Positions 22,346 to 47,998 of a stretch of 64,000 bases of DNA are shown here, in pieces. Position 1 is the first letter of the stretch; each line of letters opens with the position of its first letter. The stretch spans positions 62,001-126,000 of the forward strand of contig NZ_JAIMBY010000001.1 in NCBI RefSeq assembly GCF_026191915.1. Reading direction: 5' to 3'. Under the pieces are notes generated by a model. That model did no database searches. It was not told the DNA's origin and saw only the letters and a list, made by a program, of their open reading frames with translations. Source of the DNA: Acidiphilium sp. PA. Lineage in GTDB: Bacteria > Pseudomonadota > Alphaproteobacteria > Acetobacterales > Acetobacteraceae. The position numbers were made by a program, and so were the translations under genes.

Positions 22346-22981
22346 TTATACTTTCGCCAAGGCCTGATTGACCCATGCCGCGGCGGCGGCGAAGGCGTGG
22401 TCGGCATCGAGCGTGCTGGTATCGAGCACATGGGCATCGTCCGCCGGGCGCAACGGGGCGGCGGCGCGTGTCCGGTCGGCCTCGTCACGGGCTGCGAGGT
22501 CGGCACGCACTGCATCGAGCGTCGCGGCAAGACCCTGCGCCTGGCGCTCGGCGAACCGGCGTTGGGCGCGCACGTCGAGCGAGGCGGTGACGAAAAGTTT
22601 TACCGCGGCCTGCGGGAACACGATGGTGCCAATGTCGCGCCCATCGAGGACGGCGCCGGCGTTGGCGGCGAAATTGCGCTGAAAATCGAGCAGGGCGGCG
22701 CGCACGGTGGCGATCGAGGCGACCGCACTAGCCGCCAGATCGACCTCTGGCGTGCGCAGATCATCGCGCCCGAGGTCGAGACGACCGAGTCCGCGCGCCT
22801 GAGCCGTGGCGATGTCGGGATCGGTCGGATTGCCGCCGTGGTCGAGCACGCGGCGGCCGACCACACGATAGAGCAGGCCGGTGTCGAGATAGGGCAGGTT
22901 GAAGGCTGCCGCCAGGCGCCGGGCCAACGTGCCCTTGCCAGATGCCGCCGGACCATCGATGGCGATGACGATCGGTTTCAT
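22346..22981 (-). CDS. cmk: Cytidylate kinase
   Basis: The 211-residue kinase phosphorylates CMP/dCMP with ATP. It has the P-loop [37 protein letters not shown] and the ERQAQGL segment. Its ATG overlaps the stop of aroA (ATGA), so the two are co-translated. In many alphaproteobacteria rpsA follows cmk; here parE follows instead. Confidence 0.95.
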
Positions 22982-36267: not shown

Positions 36268-37797
36268 TCACCGCTTCAGCAGGCGGCGCACCGAAAGCAG
36301 CAGATCGGCTTCTGCCCCATCGGGCCGGCCGCTGAACAACCAGAGGCTTGCAACGGTCAGGCCGTAACTTGCGACCCCGAGTGCGATGGCCCCTACCATG
36401 TGCATGGCCAAAATCGGGTTGCGTCCGGCCCAGGGGCCCCAGCCGAGATGCGCCGCCAGCAGCACGGTCGTCATCACGCCAGCGCCAATCAGCGTGCGCC
36501 AGATGCGTGCGAAAATCGCGATCACGCCGACGCGCAGCCGTCGTGTCATCACCATGAAATAGGCCGTCTGGGCGACCACATCGACGGTCGAGACAGAGAC
36601 CGCCGCGCCGATCAGCCCGTAGCGTGGCACCAATATGAGCAACAGGCCGACGCGCAGGATGGTGAGCCCGATATCGAGTTTCAGGCTGGCCTTGAGCCAG
36701 GCTTGCACCGCGAACAAGGTGCCCGCGATCGAGCCAAAGATCGTCACGGTCGTGGCAATCCCGAAAATCTCCAGAATCGGCACCGCGCCGAGCCATTTCG
36801 CGCCGAAGCCGAGCTTGATGATCGGGTAGGCGATCAGCGACAGGCCGAAACCGGCGGGTACGGTGATCAGGGCCATCAGCCCCAGCAGACGCAGCATCAT
36901 CACGGCACCGTTGTCGCCGCCCTGCCGCGCCTCGGAAAAACCGGCGAAAGCGGCGCGGCAGAGCGGGCCGATCAGTTCCGAACTCGGCAGGCCGGAAATT
37001 TCGGTCCCCACGCCGTAGACGCCGACATCAGCGGTGCCGGAAACCCGCCCGATCACAATGTTGCTGGTCGCACCCTGCACGACACCGACCAGATTGATCA
37101 ACCAGATCATGCTGGAATAGCCCGAAATCCGCCGCCAGCCGGACAGGGTCAAGCTTGGGCGGTAAGGGTGGATCCAGTAACTGATCGCCACCGTCGCGAC
37201 CTGGTTGATCAGGATTGCAAACACCAAGGCCCAGTAATTGCGCAACCAGAAGGCGAGCGCGATGCCGGAAATCACCGATATGATCCGCGGCACCAATTTG
37301 TATTGGAATTCCTTGTCGAACGCGATGAAGCGGACGAAGTCGACCACGCCGATGTTTTCGAGCGCGCTGACGCAGCTACCGATCGCTACGACATAGAGCA
37401 CGTCGACCATATCCGGATTGTGAAAAAACCCGGCAATCGGGACGGCGAACGCCGCAATGATGATGCCGGTGGCGAAACCACGGATCGCGTTGATGGTGAA
37501 GCCGGTATCGTATAGTTCGCGGTCTGGGCGTTCGTTGCGGATGATCGCGCCCTGGATGCCGACCTCGGACAACTGGGCAAGGCTGAACATCAAATTCATC
37601 GAGAGGGCTACGATCCCGAATGCGGAGGGGGCGAGCAGCCGCACCAGAATCAACGTGCTCATCAGCCCGAGAATGCGGTTGATGAACCGCCAGCCAACGA
37701 TCCAGCCTGCACCGCGCGCCGTGCGCGAGAGGACGGAGCCTTCACGGGCGAGGCTTTTCAGCCCGGCGTCGGCCGGGAGATCGATCGGATCGGTCAT
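36268..37797 (-). CDS. Polysaccharide flippase (Wzx-like)
   Basis: The 509-residue protein has 12-14 membrane segments and matches the lipopolysaccharide biosynthesis/PST exporter type: RTARGAGWIVGWRFINRILGLMSTLILVRLLAP, ALSMNLMFSLAQLSEVGIQGAIIRN and FRNYWAL-like regions. It would flip undecaprenyl-linked repeat units to the periplasm. ATG 37797 lies five bases after the stop of asnB, so the two are in one operon. It is the distal gene of the minus-strand run starting at 39.7 kb. Confidence 0.9.
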   Translation of the reverse strand: MTDPIDLPADAGLKSLAREGSVLSRTARGAGWIVGWRFINRILGLMSTLILVRLLAPSAFGIVALSMNLMFSLAQLSEVGIQGAIIRNERPDRELYDTGFTINAIRGFATGIIIAAFAVPIAGFFHNPDMVDVLYVVAIGSCVSALENIGVVDFVRFIAFDKEFQYKLVPRIISVISGIALAFWLRNYWALVFAILINQVATVAISYWIHPYRPSLTLSGWRRISGYSSMIWLINLVGVVQGATSNIVIGRVSGTADVGVYGVGTEISGLPSSELIGPLCRAAFAGFSEARQGGDNGAVMMLRLLGLMALITVPAGFGLSLIAYPIIKLGFGAKWLGAVPILEIFGIATTVTIFGSIAGTLFAVQAWLKASLKLDIGLTILRVGLLLILVPRYGLIGAAVSVSTVDVVAQTAYFMVMTRRLRVGVIAIFARIWRTLIGAGVMTTVLLAAHLGWGPWAGRNPILAMHMVGAIALGVASYGLTVASLWLFSGRPDGAEADLLLSVRRLLKR

Positions 37798-37801
37798 GTA
37801 G

Positions 37802-39733
37802 TCAGGCGACCAGAACGGGGGTGGCGTCCGGCATGGGGGCGCCGGTGTGGCGGGCCAGAAACCCTTCCAGCACCAGCAGGTGCCAGAGTTTCCAGCCATG
37901 ATCGTGCTGCCCCGCTTCGTGCTGGTCGATCATGCGGCCGATCGCCGTACCGTCGAACCAGCCCGTATCGAGCATCGCGGGACCGAGCAGGGTGCCGCGC
38001 AGGCGCGGTGCCACGCGGCGCAATTCGGCGGAGATCGGCGCGACGAACCCTTGTTTGGGCCGATCGAGCACAGCGCGCGGCAGCAGCGGTGAAACGGCTG
38101 TTCGCAGCACCGATTTGCCCTGGCCGGCGCGCAGCTTGAGCGCCGATGGCAAACCCATGCCCCAGGCGAGCAGCGCGGGATCGAGCAGCGGCGAACGGAC
38201 TTCGACGCCGCTGCGCATGCTGGTGCGGTCGACTTTCACCAGAATATCGCCCGGCAGATAGGTTGCGAGATCGACCATCTGGGCGGCGCGCAGGGGATCG
38301 GCGTCAGTATCGAGGGCGGCGACGATGCCGGCGGCAGGGTCGTGACCATCGAGCATGGATCGTAATGCGGGCGACATCAGGCCGCGCCGTTCGGCATCCT
38401 GCAGTTTGCAAATTGTCCGGTAGTAGCCGTGGGCGGAATCGAGGCTGATTTCGGTGAGCGTGGTTTTTGCGCGCAGCCAGGCTGGCGCGCGGTCGAGCTT
38501 GGGATACGCGGCGGCGATCGGGGCGAGCAAAGCGCGCCGGGCGCGATCGGGCAACAGGCGGCGGGCCTGATCGGCGATGGCATGCCAGCGATAACGGCGG
38601 TAGCCACCGAACACCTCATCGCCCCCGTCGCCGGACAGGGCGACCTTGACGCCGGTGCGCGCCAGCCTGGCGACGGCAAGACTGGGAACGGAGGAATGAT
38701 CACCGAAAGGTTCGCCGAACACCTCGGCCTGGTGGCGGGCGGCGTCGATCACGTCGGTCGGTGCGACCACTTCGGATGTGTGGACCACGCCGCAATGCGC
38801 CGCCATGGCGGCGGCTGTGGCGCGTTCATCGGTCGCGCCGGGAAATCCGATCGTGAAGCTTTGCAGCGGCGATTTGGCATGACGCGCAGCCAGGGCGACG
38901 ATGGCGCTGGAATCGACCCCGCCCGACAGAAACGCGCCGAGTGGCACATCAGCGATCATCCGGGCGGCGACCGCCTTGTCGAGCCTGGTACGCAACTCGG
39001 CCGCGGCATCAGCGAGGCCTGCGGGCGGCGTGGTGGGTTGCGGCAGGGTCCAGTAGCGGCGGGGCGGCGGCAGCGGGGTGCCCGCCTCGATCAGCATGAA
39101 ATGCGCGGGCGGCAGTTTGCGGATGCGCTGATAGATCGAGGCCGGGTCCGGGACGTAGCCGAAGGCCAGATAATCTTCGAGCGCAACGGGATCGAGCCGG
39201 TCGGTCAGGCCGGGAACCGGCGTCAGAGCGGCGAGTTCCGAGCCGAAGGCCAATGTACCGTCCGGCGCGGTGCCATAGTAGAGTGGTTTTTTGCCGAGCC
39301 GGTCACGGGCCAGCAGTAGTGTTGCCTGCTGGCGGTCCCATAATGCGAAGGCAAAGAAACCGTCCAGCCGGTCGAGTACGGCGAGGCCCCAGCTTTCCCA
39401 GCCGTGGATGATCACCTCGGTATCGCAATGCGTCGCGAAGACATGGCCGAGACCGAGCAACTCGTCGCGCAGGGACTGAAAATTATAAATCTCGCCGTTG
39501 AAGGCAATGATGACCGTTCCGTCCTCGTTGGCCATCGGCTGATGACCGGCCGCCAGATCGATGATGGCGAGGCGGCGAAACCCGAGCCCGATTCCTGGTT
39601 CGGTGTAAAATCCCTCGTCGTCCGGACCACGATGAGCGATGGCCGCTGTCATGCGATGCAGCAGCGCTGGATCGATAGCGCGCGCGTTGGGCCGCGCGGT
39701 TCGCGGGGCAAACAATCCGGTGAAGCCACACAT
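37802..39733 (-). CDS. asnB: Asparagine synthase (exosortase-type amidotransferase)
   Basis: The 643-residue protein begins MCGFTGLF with the class II glutaminase Cys2, has AFNGEIYNF, DTEVIIHGWE and, near residue 265, the PP-loop FLSGGVDSSAIVALAA, then LSGDGGDEVFGGYRRYRW. It resembles the amidotransferase found in XrtA/PEP-CTERM exopolysaccharide loci, which probably amidates a sugar acid rather than free aspartate. The PEP-CTERM gene at 47.2-47.8 kb supports that setting. The start is fixed by the MCG N terminus. Confidence 0.9.
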   Translation of the reverse strand: MCGFTGLFAPRTARPNARAIDPALLHRMTAAIAHRGPDDEGFYTEPGIGLGFRRLAIIDLAAGHQPMANEDGTVIIAFNGEIYNFQSLRDELLGLGHVFATHCDTEVIIHGWESWGLAVLDRLDGFFAFALWDRQQATLLLARDRLGKKPLYYGTAPDGTLAFGSELAALTPVPGLTDRLDPVALEDYLAFGYVPDPASIYQRIRKLPPAHFMLIEAGTPLPPPRRYWTLPQPTTPPAGLADAAAELRTRLDKAVAARMIADVPLGAFLSGGVDSSAIVALAARHAKSPLQSFTIGFPGATDERATAAAMAAHCGVVHTSEVVAPTDVIDAARHQAEVFGEPFGDHSSVPSLAVARLARTGVKVALSGDGGDEVFGGYRRYRWHAIADQARRLLPDRARRALLAPIAAAYPKLDRAPAWLRAKTTLTEISLDSAHGYYRTICKLQDAERRGLMSPALRSMLDGHDPAAGIVAALDTDADPLRAAQMVDLATYLPGDILVKVDRTSMRSGVEVRSPLLDPALLAWGMGLPSALKLRAGQGKSVLRTAVSPLLPRAVLDRPKQGFVAPISAELRRVAPRLRGTLLGPAMLDTGWFDGTAIGRMIDQHEAGQHDHGWKLWHLLVLEGFLARHTGAPMPDATPVLVA

Positions 39734-39890
39734 GTGCTCAAATCTCCCTATACGTCGCGTTCTACCGCCAGATTAATTGGCGTCCGACGTCAAAACGCTA
39801 ATAATAGCAGGAAGATACCACGAAACGGGGCTGCCCGATACGCAAACAACGAAGGCTCAGGTCAGTCGCCCTTCTTTTTCCTCAAAACAA

Positions 39891-39905
39891 TTAACTACGT
39901 GTTAA
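39891..39905. promoter_or_regulatory. CtrA-type box TTAA-N7-TTAA
   Basis: TTAACTACGTGTTAA is a perfect match to the full CtrA recognition site of alphaproteobacteria. It lies in an AT-rich gap, about 160 bases upstream of asnB (-) and 72 bases upstream of the 106-residue frame (+). Binding is inferred only from the match. Confidence 0.5.
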
Positions 39906-39976
39906 CATATTTTTAATATAAACAATCAAGACGAAACTTAAAAATGGTGTAATAGTCATTTTTTGGGAAAAACTTC

Positions 39977-40297
39977 ATGGATATTGGCATTGTCTATCGT
40001 TCCACCGGAGTGCTCATCTATCGTTCCTTGTCGCACGTCATGACGAAGCGCCCCCATAGCGCGGGTGGCTTTGGCGAACAGACCCGCCGGCGCGGCTGGG
40101 CGCTTGGTTCGCGCCGACGGACCGTCTTCGTACGGCCCGATCGTCGAACCTGGGATCAGTACGAAGGTGAGGTCCAGCCTGGACTTGGAACGGGCGATCA
40201 TGAGCGGCTTAGTTTGCGCATCGCAATTCCGGTGATGATTGCTCTGGCGCTCATGTTCTGGTGGGCGATCATCGAGATCGGAATGCGAATTTTCTAG
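39977..40297 (+). CDS. Hypothetical protein with C-terminal membrane segment
   Basis: A 106-residue frame with GGGAAAAA before the ATG. The middle is basic and polar, and the C terminus carries one hydrophobic helix (LRIAIPVMIALALMFWWAII) ending GMRIF. I do not recognise it. It lies in the divergent gap before asnB, downstream of a CtrA-type box and an AT-rich stretch with TAATATAAA, and its stop overlaps the convergent glycosyltransferase by four bases. An antisense frame covers much of it, so it is not certain. Confidence 0.45.
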   Translation: MDIGIVYRSTGVLIYRSLSHVMTKRPHSAGGFGEQTRRRGWALGSRRRTVFVRPDRRTWDQYEGEVQPGLGTGDHERLSLRIAIPVMIALALMFWWAIIEIGMRIF

Positions 40298-41394
40298 AGG
40301 CTGTCGCGCTGCTCGATGGAATCGTTTGGTATCATGAGCGCTTCCCATCGCGCGGCCATCACACTGAAATCGAAATGCTGTTCAGCGTGACCACGGTTCG
40401 CAAAACCGATCACAGCCTGCCGTGCCGGGTCCGCCAGCAGGGCGACCATGGCCGCGGCCAGCGCCTGCGGATCGCGCGGTGTCAGAAAATCGAGGTTATC
40501 CGGTGCGACCATGCGCGCGATATCGCCCACGCGCGTCGCGGCGATGGGCAGTCCGGACGCCATCGCCTCCATCACCGAAAGAGGCATCTGCTCGGTGTCC
40601 GAGCTCAAGGCGAACATCGAAAAATCGCGATAAACCGGTGCGGGATCGGCTAGCGCGCCCAGGAAGCGCACCGGCAGGCTCAGCTCGCGCGCCATGGTTT
40701 CCAGCGCTGCGCGATCCGGCCCATCCCCCACCAGCACCAGATCGAATGCGTGGTGGCGCCGCGCGATTGCGGCGGCTTGCAGCAAGCGAGCCAGATTTTT
40801 CTCCGGCCGCAGGGCGGCGACACAACCGATCACGGCAGGGCCGCCGACCGGTCGCCCGGCGGGGACAAATTTGGCGAGATCGATGCCGTTGGGGATGTAA
40901 TGAAGGGTCCGGGCAGGCAGCCGCCATACGGTCGCCGCCGTGTTCAACAAAGTCTGCGAGGGAACGATTGTGGTGCTCGCGCGGAGAAACAGCCGGCGCG
41001 TCCAAACCCGGCGGCGCAACTGACGGTCACGCTCGTCACGGCCGAAGCCATCTTCGGTGTGGATATGGCGGATGCGGGGACCAAGCTGGTTGGCGATCGC
41101 CCATTCGATCGCGCCCCAGTTGCTGGTCACCAGCAGATCAGGCTGGTGAGCGCGGATGGCGGCGGCGATCGTACGGAGGCGCTGTGGCAGCGGCTGACTC
41201 ACAGACGGTACGGCGGGAAATACGACGTCAAGAGCCGGCTCCAGCCGGTCGCTGCAACCCGTGTCGTTATCGAGCGCGATGATCGTGTGAGTGAAGCGTG
41301 CACCGAAATGATTGGCAAGTGCCGCCATGCGCATCTGTGCGCCACCGGCGGCGAAACTCGGAAAGATATGCAGGATGCGTTGCTTACGGCTCAT
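40294..41394 (-). CDS. GT4 family glycosyltransferase
   Basis: The 366-residue GT-B protein begins RILHIFPSFAAGGAQMRM, has YIPNGIDLAKF, GCVAALRPEKNLARLLQAA and the donor-site pattern SDTEQMPLSVMEAMASGLPIAATRVGD. It resembles the sugar transferases of exosortase-linked loci (TIGR03088-like). The ATG overlaps the stop of the upstream glycosyltransferase (ATGA). Sugar and linkage unknown. Confidence 0.9.
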   Translation of the reverse strand: MSRKQRILHIFPSFAAGGAQMRMAALANHFGARFTHTIIALDNDTGCSDRLEPALDVVFPAVPSVSQPLPQRLRTIAAAIRAHQPDLLVTSNWGAIEWAIANQLGPRIRHIHTEDGFGRDERDRQLRRRVWTRRLFLRASTTIVPSQTLLNTAATVWRLPARTLHYIPNGIDLAKFVPAGRPVGGPAVIGCVAALRPEKNLARLLQAAAIARRHHAFDLVLVGDGPDRAALETMARELSLPVRFLGALADPAPVYRDFSMFALSSDTEQMPLSVMEAMASGLPIAATRVGDIARMVAPDNLDFLTPRDPQALAAAMVALLADPARQAVIGFANRGHAEQHFDFSVMAARWEALMIPNDSIEQRDSL

Positions 41395-42503
41395 GACGGC
41401 AGCGATGCGATAACCCGGCGCGCGTTACCGGCCCAGGTGTAGTCACGGCCGATCACCTCGGCGCGTGCGGCCTGCCCGAGGCGGGTCCGCAGTGCGGGAT
41501 CGGCTGCAAGACGAGCGATACAGGCCCAGAGCGCGGCCCAGTTTTCCGGCTCGAACAACAGAGCGGTCTCGCCGTCCACCAGGATCTCACGGAGATTGGG
41601 TTGATCCGGCGCCACGATGGCGCAGCCGGCCGCCATATATTCGAACAGTTTGAGCGGCGAGGCATAGTCGACCGCACGGGGTTGCAGCGCGATATCGATA
41701 CCGGCAAGGAAGGCGGGCACCGCCTCGCGCGCGACCAGACCGGCGAAGCTGACGTGAGCGGCGAGGCCCGCCGATGCAACCATGGATTCGAGGATCGGCC
41801 GGGCGGGACCTTCGCCGGCAATGACGAAATCGAATTTGTCGGGACTTTCGGCCAGCGCGGTGATCACCGGTTCGATACCGTGCCAGGGTCGGACGAAACC
41901 AATGAAGCCGAGCACCGCGCGGCGACCCGTGGTTGGGGGGCGGGGCGGGAAACGGTCGAGGTTGATGCCGTTGGGCGTGATGACGAGGTTGGAGGGATCG
42001 ACGCCGACTGCGGTGATACGCGCGCCGAGCACCTTAGTGACGGCGAACACACGGGTCGCGGCGCGCCACACCGCACGCTCCGTCCAACGGGCCAAACCGT
42101 GCAGTTTCAGCCCCCCATGGGCGATGCGTTCTTCGGCGAGCGGTGAATTGACTTCGACCAGAAACGGGATTTTGCGCTCACGCGCGAGCCACATGCCGGC
42201 GAGGTAGAACAAATTATAACGTTCGTAGATGAGATCAGGGTTGAAGGCGGCCGCCGCTCCGCGCAGCCGCCACCAGGCGGGGATGTTGTAAGCCAGTTCG
42301 GCCAGTTCCCCGATTGCGCCAGGCAGGGCGGCGCGCAGCCTGGCGACCCAGGTGGTTTCGGCGCCGAAACCGGTCGACTCGTAAAATGAGGGGCCGACCA
42401 CCAGAACCTCATGGCCCGCGGCACGGAAAGCCGCGACGAGGTCTTCGACATGGACCGATTGGCCATCGCGCGACTGGATCCGGTGGCTGTAGAGAATACG
42501 CAT
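41391..42503 (-). CDS. GT4 family glycosyltransferase
   Basis: This 370-residue protein has the GT-B N terminus RILYSHRIQSRDGQSVHVEDL, ITPNGINLDRFPP, LGFIGFVRPWHGIEPV and the C-terminal region SPLKLFEYMAAGCAIVAPDQPN. It is coupled to the next glycosyltransferase by a 4-base overlap. Two copies of an AT-rich palindromic repeat lie upstream, between it and the acyltransferase gene. Confidence 0.9.
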   Translation of the reverse strand: MRILYSHRIQSRDGQSVHVEDLVAAFRAAGHEVLVVGPSFYESTGFGAETTWVARLRAALPGAIGELAELAYNIPAWWRLRGAAAAFNPDLIYERYNLFYLAGMWLARERKIPFLVEVNSPLAEERIAHGGLKLHGLARWTERAVWRAATRVFAVTKVLGARITAVGVDPSNLVITPNGINLDRFPPRPPTTGRRAVLGFIGFVRPWHGIEPVITALAESPDKFDFVIAGEGPARPILESMVASAGLAAHVSFAGLVAREAVPAFLAGIDIALQPRAVDYASPLKLFEYMAAGCAIVAPDQPNLREILVDGETALLFEPENWAALWACIARLAADPALRTRLGQAARAEVIGRDYTWAGNARRVIASLPS

Positions 42504-42543
42504 GCAGAATGGGTCCTGGTTCGGCAGAAGGGGTAGGGAAGTA

Positions 42544-42580
42544 CTGCCTTTTTGGAAGAAAGCAGCAAAAAAATTTTCTT
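42544..42580 (+). repeat. AT-rich palindromic repeat, copy A (diverged)
   Basis: Contains GCCTTTTTGGAAGAAAGCAGCAAAAAAATTTTCTT. In this orientation it matches the core of copies B to D: a pyrimidine run, a purine run, then GCAAAAAA and a CTTT-like end. It faces copy B across about 43 bases. Confidence 0.6.
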
Positions 42581-42622
42581 AATCCGGGACACGGGCGTTG
42601 GCACCGGCACAGCCCTATAGGA

Positions 42623-42663
42623 CCAAAAGTTTTTTGCTTCTTTTTTAAAAAAGAAGCGCTTGC
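42623..42663 (-). repeat. AT-rich palindromic repeat, copy B
   Basis: The core GCTTCTTTTTT/AAAAAAGAAGC (42636-42657) is a perfect 22-base palindrome, followed on the minus strand by AAAAAACTTTTGG. It abuts the stop of the acyltransferase gene (42664). Confidence 0.75.
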
Positions 42664-43707
42664 TTAAGTCTTGTCCTTCCGTTTTCTGAGCCGACGTCTT
42701 AACGCACCAACCTGACCGCGCACCAGTGCGAGCACGCCCGCCGGTCGGCGCGGATTGATCAGCAGGGCGCCGATTCGTTCGTGCCGCTGATCGACCCAGA
42801 GGCGTTTATAGGGATCATCGCCACGACCGAAATCGAGCCTGGCGGGGCGGTCCCGGGCCAGAATGGCGGCGAGCATTTGCGCGGTCAGGACGGTTCCAGG
42901 GGATAAGGCGGTATGGGCTTCGTCATGCGCGAGTTTCAACAGCATGGCGCTGCCGCCGGACACCGCCCAGTATTGCGCGGCGATCGGGCCCGATGGTGTC
43001 GCGAGAATGCCAAGACGCAACAGACCGGCGTCGGCAAGGCTGCGCATGCAGGCGGCGTTGAACGCAGCGAAGGGTTCAGCTTGTTTCCAGGACATGGCGT
43101 AGACCTGTTCGAAGGCGCTGATGCCGGCAGCAAGGCCCGCATCGGAGTCGATGAAACTGAACGATGTGACACCCCGCGCGCGTTTGAGTTTGCGAGTGAT
43201 GGTGCTGCGCAAGCGGCCCGGGCGGGTGGCGAGCCAGGCGTCGAACTCGGCGGTTTCGACCGGGGCATGCCAATTACCGAAATGGCTGAAGCGCTGGACG
43301 ATGATGCCGCTGGCTGCAACCGCATCGAGGAATGGGGCGAGCCCCGGTTGTGCGGCATCGAGGGCATCGAGCCGGAGTGTACCGTGGCGGCGGGCGATGC
43401 GGGCAAAAGCGCCGCCGACAGTAGCCGGTGCGGTGCCGAGCGGCGGAGTGAAGACGAGCGAATAGGGGCTCGACAGGCCGCCAACCACCCTCCCCCGCCG
43501 GCACCAGACCGGAATTACCGCATCGGCGATGGCGACGCATCCGGGCGCGAGGCCGGGCGGCGCGGCGGCGCGGGCCAGCAGATCAAACCAGAGGTGGCTT
43601 GCGAACAGGTCGACCGTGGGGTGAACGAAGCGGGCGATCGTCCCTGCATCGAGCGCGGACCAGGCGAGGAAGCGCGCCGGACCGGCCGTGCTGTCATCCG
43701 CCGTCAT
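42664..43707 (-). CDS. FemAB/BioF2-like GNAT acyltransferase
   Basis: The 347-residue protein fits the GNAT_acetyltran_6 (BioF2-like) family, seen in exosortase-associated loci as FemAB-related proteins. Segments include LRSTITRKLKRARGVTSF, FEQVYAMSWKQAEPF, GILATPSGPIAAQYWAV, and LDFGRGDDPYKRLWVDQR near the C terminus. It may transfer an acyl or aminoacyl group onto the polysaccharide or its lipid carrier. A second homologue lies at 46.0-47.2 kb on the opposite strand. Confidence 0.82.
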   Translation of the reverse strand: MTADDSTAGPARFLAWSALDAGTIARFVHPTVDLFASHLWFDLLARAAAPPGLAPGCVAIADAVIPVWCRRGRVVGGLSSPYSLVFTPPLGTAPATVGGAFARIARRHGTLRLDALDAAQPGLAPFLDAVAASGIIVQRFSHFGNWHAPVETAEFDAWLATRPGRLRSTITRKLKRARGVTSFSFIDSDAGLAAGISAFEQVYAMSWKQAEPFAAFNAACMRSLADAGLLRLGILATPSGPIAAQYWAVSGGSAMLLKLAHDEAHTALSPGTVLTAQMLAAILARDRPARLDFGRGDDPYKRLWVDQRHERIGALLINPRRPAGVLALVRGQVGALRRRLRKRKDKT

Positions 43708-43713
43708 GCTGGG

Positions 43714-44976
43714 TCACCCGGAACGAGGGCCGGGCGCGCGGTCGAGGCAGGCAGCGACGAAGTCACGCGCCTTGACCTGCCAGTCCGCGGCTTGGGCGCA
43801 GGCAAGTCCCTGGGCGGCGATACGGGCGCGCAGGGCGGGATCATCGTGTAGCCGGCGCATCGCGTCTTCGATCGTCGGGATGGCGTGGCCGTCGACGACG
43901 AGGCCGTTGACCCCATCCGTCACAGCATCGACGCTGCCGCCATCGCGTCCGGCGATCACCGGCAGGCCCGCGGCATTGGCTTCCAGGAACACCAGGCCGA
44001 AGCCTTCGGTATCGCCCGAGGGCAGCGCGCGGTTGGGCATTACGAACACATCGCCCAGCGCATAATGGTCCGCCAGATCGACATCCGCGACAGCGCCGGC
44101 GAAGATGACCGCATCGGCCACACCGGATTCGGCGGCGATGGCACGCAGATTATCGGCATAGGGGCCGGCGCCAACAACCAGAAACCGGCATTCCCGGTGA
44201 TCGGCCCAGACCAAGGCGAAGGCGCGGATCGCATGGTCGATGCCCTTTTTTTCGAGCAGGCGGCACACCGAGACATAGACGAATTTATCCTCCAGACCGT
44301 AGTGCGCGACCAGGTCAGGGCGCCGCGCGCTCGATGAGAAGCGGCGGAAATCGACGCCGTTTTCGATCAGGACGATTGGCGGCGCCGGCGTACCGGCGAG
44401 CAGGGTGCGGACCGCTTCGGCGGTGAAGCGGCTGACCACGATGATGGCATCGGCGGCCGCAAGGCTGCGGCGGCGGCGGGACCAATCGGGGTCGTAATCG
44501 TCGCGCGTGGTAATTTCCTCGCCATGGATATAGACAATGCGCCGCACGCCGGGCCAGCGGCGCAGCACGGCGAACAGCCAACCCGAAGGCACAAGTTCGC
44601 CGATGCAGACCGCCCGGATTCGCCCGGAACTGAGCATGGCGCGAAGCGCCCCAAGAATACGCAACCGGATCATCAAATCTCGGACGATGAAGCGCAGCCG
44701 CCCCACACCGCCGCGCTGCGGACCGCCGATCGGGGTGCGCAGCAGGCCGAGCCGTTGAACGCGGTAGCCGGGCGCACCGGATCGGGGTTGCGCAGCAGCA
44801 CGGTCGTGTTCACGCCAGCCGATCAAAGGCAGGCCATCGGTATAGCTGACGCGCGGTGCCAGCACGCTGACCACTGGCGCCGCTTCGCGGGCGAGCGCGC
44901 CGTAGACGACCGCCGAGCCACCTTGCACGGGTGGAAAGTTATTCGCGATCAGAATGATGCCGTCGGGCGCGCTCAT
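43714..44976 (-). CDS. GT4 family glycosyltransferase
   Basis: The 420-residue GT-B protein has IILIANNFPPVQGGSAVVYGALA, RRIVYIHGEEITTRDDYD, VLIENGVDFRRF, YVSVCRLLEKKGIDHAI and the donor-site NRALPSGDTEGFGLVFLEANAAG. ATG 44976 overlaps the deacetylase stop by one base (TAATG), whereas an upstream TTG is less likely. It belongs to the same operon as the deacetylase and acyltransferase. Confidence 0.9.
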   Translation of the reverse strand: MSAPDGIILIANNFPPVQGGSAVVYGALAREAAPVVSVLAPRVSYTDGLPLIGWREHDRAAAQPRSGAPGYRVQRLGLLRTPIGGPQRGGVGRLRFIVRDLMIRLRILGALRAMLSSGRIRAVCIGELVPSGWLFAVLRRWPGVRRIVYIHGEEITTRDDYDPDWSRRRRSLAAADAIIVVSRFTAEAVRTLLAGTPAPPIVLIENGVDFRRFSSSARRPDLVAHYGLEDKFVYVSVCRLLEKKGIDHAIRAFALVWADHRECRFLVVGAGPYADNLRAIAAESGVADAVIFAGAVADVDLADHYALGDVFVMPNRALPSGDTEGFGLVFLEANAAGLPVIAGRDGGSVDAVTDGVNGLVVDGHAIPTIEDAMRRLHDDPALRARIAAQGLACAQAADWQVKARDFVAACLDRAPGPRSG

Positions 44977-45959
44977 TACCGGCAACCCGGGTCGAGGGGT
45001 TGATCGAGTAAGGCGAGGATATCGGTGGTGGCGGCGAAGCGGCAGGCGAAATCATCGGACAGGATGCAGAGGATCGACGAGAGGTCGTCGTAGAAACGGT
45101 GCAGATCGGCGCGCGAACGGACATAAGGATTGCGGCCGGGAGCCACCGAGGAGCTATGGAAACTGAGCGGCAGAATACTCTGGTCGCGGTTGAGCAGGCC
45201 CCTGACCAGGCGGATCATGGCCCGCGGGTCATTGCCCTCCGGTGAGAGGGTGATACGTTCAGCGCAGCCGATCCGCGCGAGCAAGCCGGCGAGCGGTGCC
45301 CAGGCGCCGTTCGAACGGATCAAGGCTCGGTAGAGCCGGCTGCCGACACTGCCGCCCCAGCCGACGATGGCGCGGCCGAGCGGCAGCTCGAGGATCGGCC
45401 GCCGGGCACCGAACCAGAACGGGGAAAAATCGATCCGGCTGTAGTCGGGGCCGGCTTCATCGAGCATCGAGGTTCGCGGCGCGATGCTGGTATCGATCAG
45501 GATGCCAGCCTGCTCGATCAGGGTAGCGGTCTGACGGCTGAGGCCGTAGCGGCCGGCGCGGAACACCAGCGGCGCGGCACCAAAACAGGCGGTGAAGCGC
45601 GTGCCCAGTGCGGCGAGCTTGCGGGCTTCGACCTCCGGCGCGAGATTGCCGCCGAAGGATTGCGCGGGAGTGCCATACCCTTCGAACGGCGGCGTCACCC
45701 AAGGGTGGAGCTGGATGCCCAGCGCCGCTTCACCGCGATCGCGGTAGCGGGCGAACAGGCGCACGAGATCGGGATTTTCGAGGATGGGGTAGGTGACCAG
45801 ATAGGTCGGCACCACGCCGTGCGCCGTGAAGATCGGCTGCAGATCCGCGATGCGGGTCAGGTAGGCGGTGGCGTAGTCCGTGCCTTCGGTGGGGTCCGCC
45901 CAATCAAAATCTTCCTCCGTATCGATCAGCACGGTGGCGACCCTGATGGGCTTGCGCAT
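44976..45959 (-). CDS. Polysaccharide deacetylase family protein (WalW-like)
   Basis: The 327-residue protein resembles WalW-type NodB-fold deacetylases: VATVLIDTEEDFDW carries the catalytic/metal Asp pair, LGIQLHPWVTPPF a metal histidine, FRAGRYGLSRQT the structural motif and LPLSFHSSSVAPG the late histidine. It probably removes N- or O-acetyl groups from the exopolysaccharide. No signal peptide is seen, so it may act on lipid-linked intermediates. It is the first gene of the minus-strand operon and divergent from the second acyltransferase gene. Confidence 0.82.
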   Translation of the reverse strand: MRKPIRVATVLIDTEEDFDWADPTEGTDYATAYLTRIADLQPIFTAHGVVPTYLVTYPILENPDLVRLFARYRDRGEAALGIQLHPWVTPPFEGYGTPAQSFGGNLAPEVEARKLAALGTRFTACFGAAPLVFRAGRYGLSRQTATLIEQAGILIDTSIAPRTSMLDEAGPDYSRIDFSPFWFGARRPILELPLGRAIVGWGGSVGSRLYRALIRSNGAWAPLAGLLARIGCAERITLSPEGNDPRAMIRLVRGLLNRDQSILPLSFHSSSVAPGRNPYVRSRADLHRFYDDLSSILCILSDDFACRFAATTDILALLDQPLDPGCR

Positions 45960-46031
45960 GCTCACGGGGCGGGGGTTAGGCAGGATATCCGGGAACATTG
46001 CGGCTTTCGGCAATTCCAATACGATGACACG

Positions 46032-47153
46032 ATGACATGGATGGCCGGGTCGAACAAGCGATGGACAACCGGCGGCGGGATGGTGGCGACGCTTCGCCCA
46101 GCTGGGGACGGGCAGCAATTGGGGGATCTGTGGCGGCGGGTCGAGGCCGAGGCCGATGGTTCGGTGTTCCAATCGTGGTTATGGCTGGGCTGCCGGTTCG
46201 ATGAGCGGTTTCGCCGCGCGCTGGTACTGACGATCGAGGCGGAGGGACGGATCGTTGCGATCGGGCTGCTCGGGCATGGCCAACGGCGATTCGGGCTGAG
46301 CCAGTATTGTCTCGCCGAAACAGGAGTCGCGGATGAAGACAACGTTTTCATCGAACATAACGGGCCCCTGGTGGTGCGGGACCGGCCGGCGGCGCGGGCG
46401 GCGTGGTTCGAAGCTGCGTTGCGGCCGCACGCCGGGTTAGGCTCGATGTTGCGCCTGTCAGGTGTGGGCCCCGATGATGCGGCGGCGGCGCAGCGCGCCG
46501 GCGTCACGGATGGCGGGATGCAGCGCGTGGCACCCTGGCGTGACCTTGCGCGGTTGCGCGCGACCGGCGCCGACTGCCTCGATCTTGTTTCGGCCAATAC
46601 CCGCCAGCAGATCAATCGGGCGTGGCGGCGGTATGAGGTCAGCGGTCCGATCATTGTGGCGCGGGCTGCAACGGTAGGGCAGGCCGATGCTTGGCTGGCG
46701 GCGTTGGCGGATTGGCACCGGCAGACGTGGGAGGCGCGCGGCAAAGCAGGGGCGTTCGCGGCGCGCGGATTTGAGCGGTTTCACACGGCGCTGGTGGCAC
46801 GCGGTGTTGCGTGCGGCGTGGTGGATGTGTTGCGGGTGGCGGCAGGGGCGCGCGTCATCGGGTATCTGTATAATTTCGTCTGGCGCGGCCGTGTCAGCGC
46901 CTATCAGAGCGGGTTTGCGTACAATCCCGCGCAACCCCACGAAAAGCCCGGGCTGGTATGCCACGTCGCGGCGATGCGGCATTATCAGGCGCGTGGGCTG
47001 GACGGTTATGATTTTCTGGCGGGGGATGACCGGTACAAGACCAGCCTCGCCGATCGCAGTGTGACGATGCACTGGATCACCGCGGCCCCGCGCTGGAGCA
47101 TGGCCGCGGCGATCCTGGCGACACGCGCCAGGATCGCGCGTTGGCGCGGCTGA
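46032..47153 (+). CDS. Second FemAB/BioF2-like acyltransferase
   Basis: The 373-residue protein has GNAT_acetyltran_6 features: SVFQSWLWLGCRFDE at the N terminus (acceptor-side fold), LVSANTRQQINRAWRRYEVSG, and the ending HVAAMRHYQARGLDGYDFLAGDDRYKTSLA. It is a distant homologue of the acyltransferase at 42.7-43.7 kb. The start at 46032 is one of several close ATGs; 46041 or 46080 are possible. Its stop abuts the stop of the convergent PEP-CTERM gene, and a perfect 12-bp stem lies inside its 3' end. Confidence 0.8.
   Translation: MTWMAGSNKRWTTGGGMVATLRPAGDGQQLGDLWRRVEAEADGSVFQSWLWLGCRFDERFRRALVLTIEAEGRIVAIGLLGHGQRRFGLSQYCLAETGVADEDNVFIEHNGPLVVRDRPAARAAWFEAALRPHAGLGSMLRLSGVGPDDAAAAQRAGVTDGGMQRVAPWRDLARLRATGADCLDLVSANTRQQINRAWRRYEVSGPIIVARAATVGQADAWLAALADWHRQTWEARGKAGAFAARGFERFHTALVARGVACGVVDVLRVAAGARVIGYLYNFVWRGRVSAYQSGFAYNPAQPHEKPGLVCHVAAMRHYQARGLDGYDFLAGDDRYKTSLADRSVTMHWITAAPRWSMAAAILATRARIARWRG
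47109..47137. terminator. 12-bp hairpin at convergent gene junction
   Basis: GCGATCCTGGCG (47109-47120) pairs perfectly with CGCCAGGATCGC (47126-47137). It lies within the acyltransferase coding sequence 16 bases before its stop, and just past the stop of the PEP-CTERM gene on the other strand. It may terminate the PEP-CTERM transcript, though no T-tract follows. Confidence 0.45.
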
Positions 47154-47825
47154 TCAGGCGCGATTACGGTTACGGCGGCGCAAGGCGAGGCCCAGGCCGA
47201 GCAGACCGGTGCCAAGCAGCGCAAGGGAACCAGGTTCGGGGACGTTCACAGACCCGTCAAGACTCACAGACGTGTCGCCAGAGACGTTCGGCGTGATGGT
47301 GATGGCCTGCGTGATGGAGTAAAGATCAGTCCCGGTATTGTATGCGCCATCATAAACGTTGGCGACGTTGAGACCGGAGATGGTTTTGCTGCCGAGCACC
47401 GTACCGCTGTAAATCGCGTTGGTCGAAGAGCCGTAAAGCGTATATTCGAGCGACGCTGCGGCAGGCGTGTTGTTTGTATTATTTGTCAATTGACCGGAAA
47501 TTGATTGAATTTCTGCGCCCGTAAGACCACTCTCCGTCAGGTAGACCGTTACCGGCGCCGTGATGGACCCACCCCCATCGATATTAAGATCAAAATTGAC
47601 GAACTGGCCGAAGTTGGTTTGACCGGTAACGGTGGCCTGCACAACGGCGTTGCTAATTGATCCCGTCGTTACGATACCATAACCTGACGCCAGAGTGGTA
47701 ATTGATCCGCCGTTGATCGAATAACCCAGGGTCAGCAACGGTGCGATTGGACCAGCCAGGGCGGCCGATGCAAAACCGGCGATGGAAGCGACACTGAATA
47801 CGGAAGCGAGCAAAAGTCTTTTCAT
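47154..47825 (-). CDS. PEP-CTERM sorting domain protein
   Basis: The 223-residue protein has a signal peptide (MKRLLLASVFSVASIAGF to ASAALA), a Ser/Thr/Gly/Asn-rich beta-type body and a classic C-terminal sorting signal: VPEPGSLALLGTGLLGLG, a hydrophobic helix, then RRRNRNRA. Such proteins are exported and processed by an exosortase, and are tied to exopolysaccharide production. The ATG at 47825 has AGGA upstream and a sigma-54 promoter 40-55 bases before it. The gene lies at the end of the polysaccharide locus; no exosortase gene is visible here. The only cysteine-free body and low complexity suggest a surface or matrix role. Confidence 0.93.
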   Translation of the reverse strand: MKRLLLASVFSVASIAGFASAALAGPIAPLLTLGYSINGGSITTLASGYGIVTTGSISNAVVQATVTGQTNFGQFVNFDLNIDGGGSITAPVTVYLTESGLTGAEIQSISGQLTNNTNNTPAAASLEYTLYGSSTNAIYSGTVLGSKTISGLNVANVYDGAYNTGTDLYSITQAITITPNVSGDTSVSLDGSVNVPEPGSLALLGTGLLGLGLALRRRNRNRA

Positions 47826-47862
47826 CGGAATGTCCTATAGAAGGTTAAGCCTGACATTCCTA

Positions 47863-47879
47863 AGCAAACTTCGTGCCAA
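47863..47879 (-). promoter_or_regulatory. Sigma-54 (RpoN) promoter of the PEP-CTERM gene
   Basis: On the minus strand TTGGCACGAAGTTTGCT matches the consensus YTGGCACGRNNNTTGCW at every fixed position, with exact GG-N10-GC spacing. Transcription would start near 47852, giving a 5' leader of about 27 bases containing the AGGA ribosome binding site. PEP-CTERM genes in other bacteria are reported to be under RpoN with the PrsK/PrsR two-component pair, so the match is biologically consistent. Confidence 0.8.
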
Positions 47880-47998
47880 ATAATTAATGTTTATTTTTCA
47901 AACTCTTAATCGTTTCATATCTGGATAGATGTAAGAAATACTGACAGAAATTTCTACATCGTTACTTAAATAATAAAATTTTGTCTAATTATTATAAC
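47880..47998. other. AT-rich gap upstream of the sigma-54 site
   Basis: This gap is strongly AT-rich compared with its surroundings. It would hold any enhancer site for the sigma-54 activator. AGAAATTTCT (47945-47954) is a small palindrome in it, but I cannot assign an activator. Confidence 0.4.

Follow-up and report, generated by a model that had tools for sequence, protein, structure and literature searches.

A probable PrsR-activated sigma-54 promoter with an IHF-like site and helically phased spacing upstream of a PEP-CTERM gene in Acidiphilium sp. PA

The window analysed here, a stretch of 64,000 nucleotides from a contig of Acidiphilium sp. PA, contains a gene for a PEP-CTERM protein in the vicinity of genes related to polysaccharide synthesis (Table 1). 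The N-terminus of the PEP-CTERM protein resembles a signal sequence by eye, and its PF07589 match exceeds the cut-off. Residues 100-219 also match the model of the flocculation PEP-CTERM protein PepA (NF033554), at 45.9 bits and below the cut-off of 80, and an assignment as PepA was rejected on this basis. The frame of the convergent acetyltransferase-like gene directly adjoins the stop codon of the PEP-CTERM gene (47154-47156), and read-through between them is possible because no terminator-like site was found at the 47153/47154 junction. In the polysaccharide locus, the matches to polysaccharide-specific models stayed under the curated cut-offs.

Table 1. Positions of genes and of observed or predicted promoter elements in the window.
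Feature	Position	Strand	Remarks
PEP-CTERM protein, 223 aa, C-terminal VPEPGSLALLGTGLLGLGLALRRRNRNRA	47154..47825	minus	PF07589 30.4 bits, cut-off 20.7
Open frame with convergent acetyltransferase-like (PF13480) gene	45660..47153	plus	true start probably well inside
Polysaccharide locus (context)	36268..46172	minus	flippase-like, XrtA-amidotransferase-like, three GT4-like glycosyltransferases
Putative 17-bp enhancer box for PrsR, TGTCAGTATTTCTTACA (motif 1 of Haft)	47930..47946	minus	51 nt before TGGCA
IHF-like site TAAGAGTTTGAAA	47896..47908	minus	matches YAANNNNTTGATW at 8/9 fixed positions; 30 nt before TGGCA
Sigma-54 -24/-12 promoter TTGGCACGAAGTTTGCT (Haft motif 2)	47863..47879	minus	GG-N10-GC
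Predicted transcription start	47852	minus	inferred from GC position
Predicted 5' leader, ribosome-binding sequence AGGA	47826..47852	minus	

The initial annotation described the 17-mer TTGGCACGAAGTTTGCT as a perfect sigma-54 promoter in an AT-rich gap upstream of the PEP-CTERM gene. Its letters, position, strand, GG-N10-GC arrangement and location 38-54 nt 5' of the start codon (A of the ATG at 47825) were all verified in the sequence, and the gap is indeed AT-rich, with a GC content of 28% at 47826-47998 compared to 63% for the whole window. The 17-mer carries the GG at -24 and the GC at -12 of motif 2, so that the term perfect is appropriate for the -24/-12 element but not for the motif 1 farther upstream, which has 3 mismatches in 17 positions to the version most common in the genome. 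By itself, the -24/-12 match is only moderately unusual, and its rarity is not decisive. The pattern TGGCACG-N4-TTGC has one exact occurrence in the window and 13 in the whole genome (4.54 Mb). When up to two mismatches were allowed, the 27 matches observed in the window were fewer than the 35.9 expected, and with up to one mismatch, 183 matches were obtained in the genome versus 115 in the reversed control. PEP-CTERM genes lie downstream of three of the 13 exact sites. The remaining ten (L003-L010, L012 and L013), which were assessed from reading frames alone, each overlap some long open frame; some of them, for example L007, have a long frame close behind and may represent other sigma-54 promoters. 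The predicted transcription start is flanked by a perfect 8-bp inverted repeat (GGAATGTC...GACATTCC, 47853-47860 / 47827-47834), which was dropped as a candidate operator or hairpin because its left arm is not conserved in the leaders of the relatives.

The upstream box changes this assessment. In the promoter class described by Haft et al. (2006; PMC1569441), motif 1 was proposed to be bound by the cognate activator, PrsR. The candidate motif 1 of the window has the characteristic length of 17 nt and is separated by 50 nt from the 17-mer, inside the 32-92 nt upstream of motif 2 that are typical of the class, and its 3' end CTTACA is one base off the described TTTACA. Genome-wide, the tandem pattern TGTCNGNNNNNNTTACA-N35-65-TGGCA had 13 matches, with none in the reversed control, and all 13 precede a PEP-CTERM gene. 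Twelve of these genes were identified by the PF07589 search, and the remaining match (C1:248845) precedes a frame of 185 aa that ends in VPEPGSLAVLGSGLVALAVFTRRRRKNV and is not in the PF07589 list. The strict combination of box and promoter was found nowhere else in the genome, and a relaxed scan of the window returned this tandem and one weak match (8/11 + 8/11) at 22663. Because the box accompanies the -24/-12 match, the promoter lies far beyond chance expectation. The scan upstream of all PEP-CTERM genes that the initial annotation had put forward placed the strict pair before 13 of the 22 PEP-CTERM genes found in the genome (21 plus the one at C1:248845). Another PEP-CTERM gene, at L038, has a near version of the pair, and a relaxed scan of the upstream loci gave no credible pair for 8 of the 22, so that at least some of them are probably controlled in another way. 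The eight genes lie at L036, L039, L046, L047, L048, L050, L051 and L052, where for L052 the true start may be close to the edge of the locus. Judged by these sequence features, the comparison confirmed that the promoter seems to be a genuine member of the known PrsR/sigma-54 class of PEP-CTERM promoters.

The distance between box and promoter is not evenly distributed. Within the genus, TTACA and TGGCA of 39 non-redundant promoters are separated by 42 (n=2), 50-52 (n=24) or 61-63 nt (n=13), with no distances between these clusters once two of 41 rows were omitted, one with a gap of 67 nt, the box of which was already counted, and one with a gap of 81 nt, where a nearer CGGCA fits better. Thirty-four of the 39 could be traced to a PEP-CTERM end, three are located at contig ends and two are unconfirmed. 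Outside the genus, distances of 42, 50-54, 61-66 and 73-74 nt were observed for 30 promoters, which were picked by eye from 66 rows for a PEP-CTERM-like C-terminus that is weak in a few cases; the other 36 rows include matches that lie within coding frames or at short contig ends, as well as a non-PEP gene that is conserved. This set covers 22 genomes, with two promoters from the same family and the others from the same class or phylum. Seven rows of the regex set without GC at -12 (gaps of 35, 47, 54, 61, 61, 65 and 77) had been omitted. At a period of 10.5 bp, Rayleigh's R was 0.89 for the 39 genus promoters and 0.78 for the 30 promoters outside, compared to 0.84 (41 genus rows) and 0.62 (66 outside rows) before row selection. 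Neither of the selected values was reached in any of 20000 draws from normal and uniform null distributions, and R remained at approximately 0.77 with one promoter for each of the 22 outside genomes. The clusters near 42, 51, 62 and 73 nt would correspond to whole helical turns, also outside the genus. The two unconfirmed boxed genes of the genus set, L116/L217 (G007:C6:2269100-2272000) and L123/L218 (G006:C48:71000-73600), are possibly decayed genes or sequence errors, since in one case the frame stops directly after NVPEPG and in the other the box precedes a short signal-peptide-like frame.

Classical cases such as nifH belong to the IHF-assisted sigma-54 promoters. A match to the IHF consensus is likewise present between the putative enhancer and the promoter of the PEP-CTERM gene. 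Gibbs sampling (10 starts each for real and shuffled sets) recovered the element TAANNNATTGAAW from the 39 genus spacers with an information content of 8.66 bits, compared to 6.13-6.55 bits in 12 shuffled sets, and placed it 30-31 nt before TGGCA in 31 of the 39. From 63 spacers outside the genus (63 of the 66 rows), an AA.....TGA-type element with 7.06-7.33 bits was obtained in two runs, whereas 12 shuffled sets gave 5.63-5.94 bits. For scoring, we used YAANNNNTTGATW, which we take to represent the IHF pattern. The mean best score was 7.44 of 9 in the genus versus 6.58 +/- 0.12 in 1000 shuffles and 6.92 versus 6.18 +/- 0.08 outside; on the antisense strand, the scores were 6.59 and 6.56, respectively. 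At least seven of the nine positions matched at 29-33 nt in 30 of 39 genus promoters and in 18 of 30 outside. When averaged by position, the score peaked sharply at 30-31 nt in the genus and at 31-32 nt outside, so that promoters outside the genus, too, show an IHF-type site ~31 nt before TGGCA. The agreement with the IHF pattern is partial, as many promoter sites reach only 6-7 of 9 positions.

These partial scores would also fit a second activator contact, an HU site or an unspecific, bendable AT-rich tract in place of an IHF site. The AT composition of the spacers by itself lifts the scores, as seen from the averages of the shuffled sequences, and in the outside set the antisense strand, too, scores higher than its shuffles. 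Nevertheless, we regard such alternatives as unlikely, albeit the most serious ones to be weighed. The element occurs in a single orientation with a defined positional peak and was recovered by unsupervised sampling in two separate sets. Read as YAA-N4-YTGAWW, it has the half-spacing of the IHF consensus WATCARNNNNTTR (as worded in PMC7962754), of which it represents the reverse complement. Moreover, ihfA and ihfB are both present in the genome: among five of the six HU/IHF-like proteins that were scanned, ihfB scored over both cut-offs and ihfA over one of two. In a Geobacter ihf study, the PEP-motif gene GSU1943 was apparently up-regulated, being tabled above the heading 'Downregulated genes' (PMC7962754), and this direction counts against simple activation by IHF.

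The genome of Acidiphilium sp. PA encodes the trans-acting factors of the promoter class, each over its curated cut-off, namely rpoN (384.2 bits, cut-off 277.35), PrsK (449.5 bits, cut-off 300), PrsR (635.5 bits, cut-off 502.6), PrsT (375 bits, cut-off 312.2) and, as the only match in the genome, an EpsH-type exosortase. Together with the proposed PrsR box, the presence of rpoN, PrsK and PrsR supports the link to a PrsR-type activator that had been suggested from the promoter, and the search for prsK and prsR that accompanied this suggestion found both genes. PrsR is 97% identical to PrsR of Acidiphilium rubrum ATCC 35905, in agreement with an origin of the window from Acidiphilium. As query in a contig search, PrsR returned 14 loci, and the window protein returned no relative in the same search.

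Among 40 genomes, matches of the window protein were detected in seven. The upstream region of its gene was aligned with those of the best matches in G011, G006, G005, G012 and G001 (62, 53, 46, 51 and 39% protein identity, respectively), and all six contain TGGCA-N8-GC and, at a gap of 50-51 nt, TTACA or TTACG. The best IHF match within 26-35 nt lies at 30 nt in all six, with scores of 8 (window), 7, 7, 7, 6 and 7 of 9. Outside TTACA/TTACG, motif 1 is variable among the aligned genes. In G007, the sixth of the other genomes, the relative (36% identity) was kept outside the alignment; it has a complete box upstream, and the spacer measures 50. The combination of box and promoter occurs in 18 of the 40 genomes and in 12 if GC at -12 is required. 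The latter pair was found in 9 of 12 genomes with PrsR versus 3 of 28 without PrsR (Fisher p 1.3e-4), a value that is indicative only because the genomes are related, and that depends on a genome assignment made by hand in which G035 was counted as positive with a single pair preceding a non-PEP-CTERM-like frame. In three of the 12 genomes with PrsR (G015, G017 and G037), the pair was not found, and in three of the 12 box-bearing genomes (G004, G012 and G016, which are fragmented drafts of ~390-580 contigs) PrsR was not found at E 1e-120. In G001 (~100 contigs, 96% complete), the relative of the window gene has TTTACA (gap of 50) and TGGCACGATTATTGC upstream, and PrsR was not found in this genome despite the recognisable layout, which speaks against a strict rule that couples PrsR to the layout. 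In six genomes of another family, f13 (L158, L188, L189, L190, L192 and L194), a PrsR-type box and a sigma-54-like promoter with a gap of 43-44 nt precede a gene that is not of the PEP-CTERM kind. Its product, a conserved protein with a length of 77-91 aa and with RLFVIKT-like and ALALGA-like segments, is possibly a different PrsR target.

The persistence of the elements in G004, G012, G016 and G001 raises the question whether a real sigma-54 promoter might respond to NtrC, NtrX or a similar activator instead of PrsR, and ten further proteins of Acidiphilium sp. PA that match the PrsR model with 204-369 bits, under the cut-off, could provide candidates. We consider this quite improbable, because the strict pair is limited to PEP-CTERM promoters in this genome (13/13), because pair and PrsR co-occur across the 40 genomes, because the box and PrsR had the same phylogenetic profile in the study of Haft et al. 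(2006; PMC1569441), and because G004, G012 and G016 are fragmented assemblies. That the -24/-12 match arose by chance and the gene is transcribed from a sigma-70 promoter is hardly credible: 10 of the 13 exact genome sites do not precede PEP-CTERM genes and a weak sigma-70-like match can be recognised at 48015-47988, but the tandem pattern had no control matches, the relatives preserve the three elements with their fixed spacing, and the count of two sigma-70-like matches is near the shuffle mean of 1.1. The excess of 13 tandem matches over none in the control and the layout kept in relatives thus support the original proposal of a sigma-54 promoter driving the PEP-CTERM gene.

From the elements, their conservation, their specificity within the genome and the trans-acting genes, we infer with high confidence a sigma-54-dependent promoter that is activated by PrsR and serves a single PEP-CTERM gene, and in which an IHF bend and the helical phase would both take part. 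The kinase PrsK would phosphorylate PrsR, which would then bind the 17-bp box, the centre of which lies ~60 nt before the -24 element. IHF would bend the DNA at its putative site between box and promoter, and bend and helical phase would set PrsR on the face from which it can touch RNA polymerase-sigma-54 at TTGGCAC-N5-TTGCT. This contact would lead to the open complex and to transcription from near 47852. About a dozen PEP-CTERM genes with this arrangement would be switched on together, and the cell would become coated with exosortase-sorted proteins that help to retain polysaccharide. More generally, it appears likely that PrsR-dependent PEP-CTERM promoters of Proteobacteria share a fixed layout of PrsR box, IHF site and sigma-54 promoter with near-whole-turn spacing (~42, 51, 62 or 73 nt) and that IHF is a general co-regulator of exosortase-sorted proteins, in which case nucleoid state and growth phase would influence their expression too.

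The initial annotation had extended the link with PrsR to the control of exopolysaccharide export, and here the evidence points in another direction. Strict pairs occur only before PEP-CTERM genes; no convincing box was found before the polysaccharide genes of the window (36-46 kb), and the contig with the exosortase and prs genes (L074, L075 and L078; base 5398 onward) contains two weak box matches only. The convergent gene separates the PEP-CTERM gene from the polysaccharide genes. The sole exosortase match and prsKRT reside on G000:C17, another contig than the XrtA-like polysaccharide genes of the window, so that the functions are spread over at least two draft contigs. On G000:C17, the XrtA chain-length and export models and the O-ligase model (353.9 bits, cut-off 188.1) scored over their cut-offs, and the EpsB-type transferase and tyrosine-kinase models under theirs. 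According to PMC9012009, moreover, prsK and prsR mutants of Zoogloea showed no change in the biosynthesis and secretion of exopolysaccharide, and the polymer was released in soluble form. An effect on polysaccharide retention is plausible. The result hence argues against direct control of polysaccharide export by the same switch and places the gene among at least 13 genes for surface proteins that are apparently under one two-component system. The phased, IHF-containing layout supplies a more precise pattern with which other genomes can be searched for PrsR targets, and it predicts that half-turn insertions and ihf mutants silence PEP-CTERM genes and free bound polysaccharide.

The promoter class itself has been known since 2006, when motif 1 and motif 2 were reported upstream of 99 of 167 PEP-CTERM genes (Haft et al., 2006; PMC1569441). 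The promoter described here shares with it the 17-nt box, the sigma-54 motif 2, a spacing inside the published range, the PEP-CTERM gene downstream and the presence of PrsR, PrsK and PrsT in the genome, and the proportion of PEP-CTERM genes with the pair is in both cases around 60% (99/167 published, 13/22 strict pairs here). The published spacer is described by its mean (62.8), SD (10.6) and range (32-92), with no IHF site named in the main text, whereas we observed whole-turn clusters and an IHF-type element. For pepA of Aquincola tertiaricarbonis, a TGGCAC/CTGCTT promoter determined by primer extension, an upstream enhancer sequence and rpoN1-dependent transcription were reported (PMC9850573). 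The promoter words before a PEP-CTERM gene are the same, and an enhancer sequence lies upstream in both cases; the organism is a different one, and the PepA model fits the window protein only weakly. Zoogloea, too, is described as using RpoN and PrsK-PrsR for this control (PMC9012009). A term search in the main text of PMC1569441 and PMC9850573 gave no mention of IHF or spacer phasing, and the searchable literature, which covers few subscription papers, contained no description of an IHF site in PEP-CTERM or exosortase promoters, so that the IHF-type site and the helix-phased spacing may not have been described previously. As in other IHF-assisted sigma-54 promoters, the IHF site would join activator and polymerase from a position between enhancer and promoter (PMC7962754). 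The PEP-CTERM promoters differ from these by the short enhancer distance of ~50-60 nt to the -24 region and by one preferred position of the IHF-type site in many promoters, both within the genus and outside.
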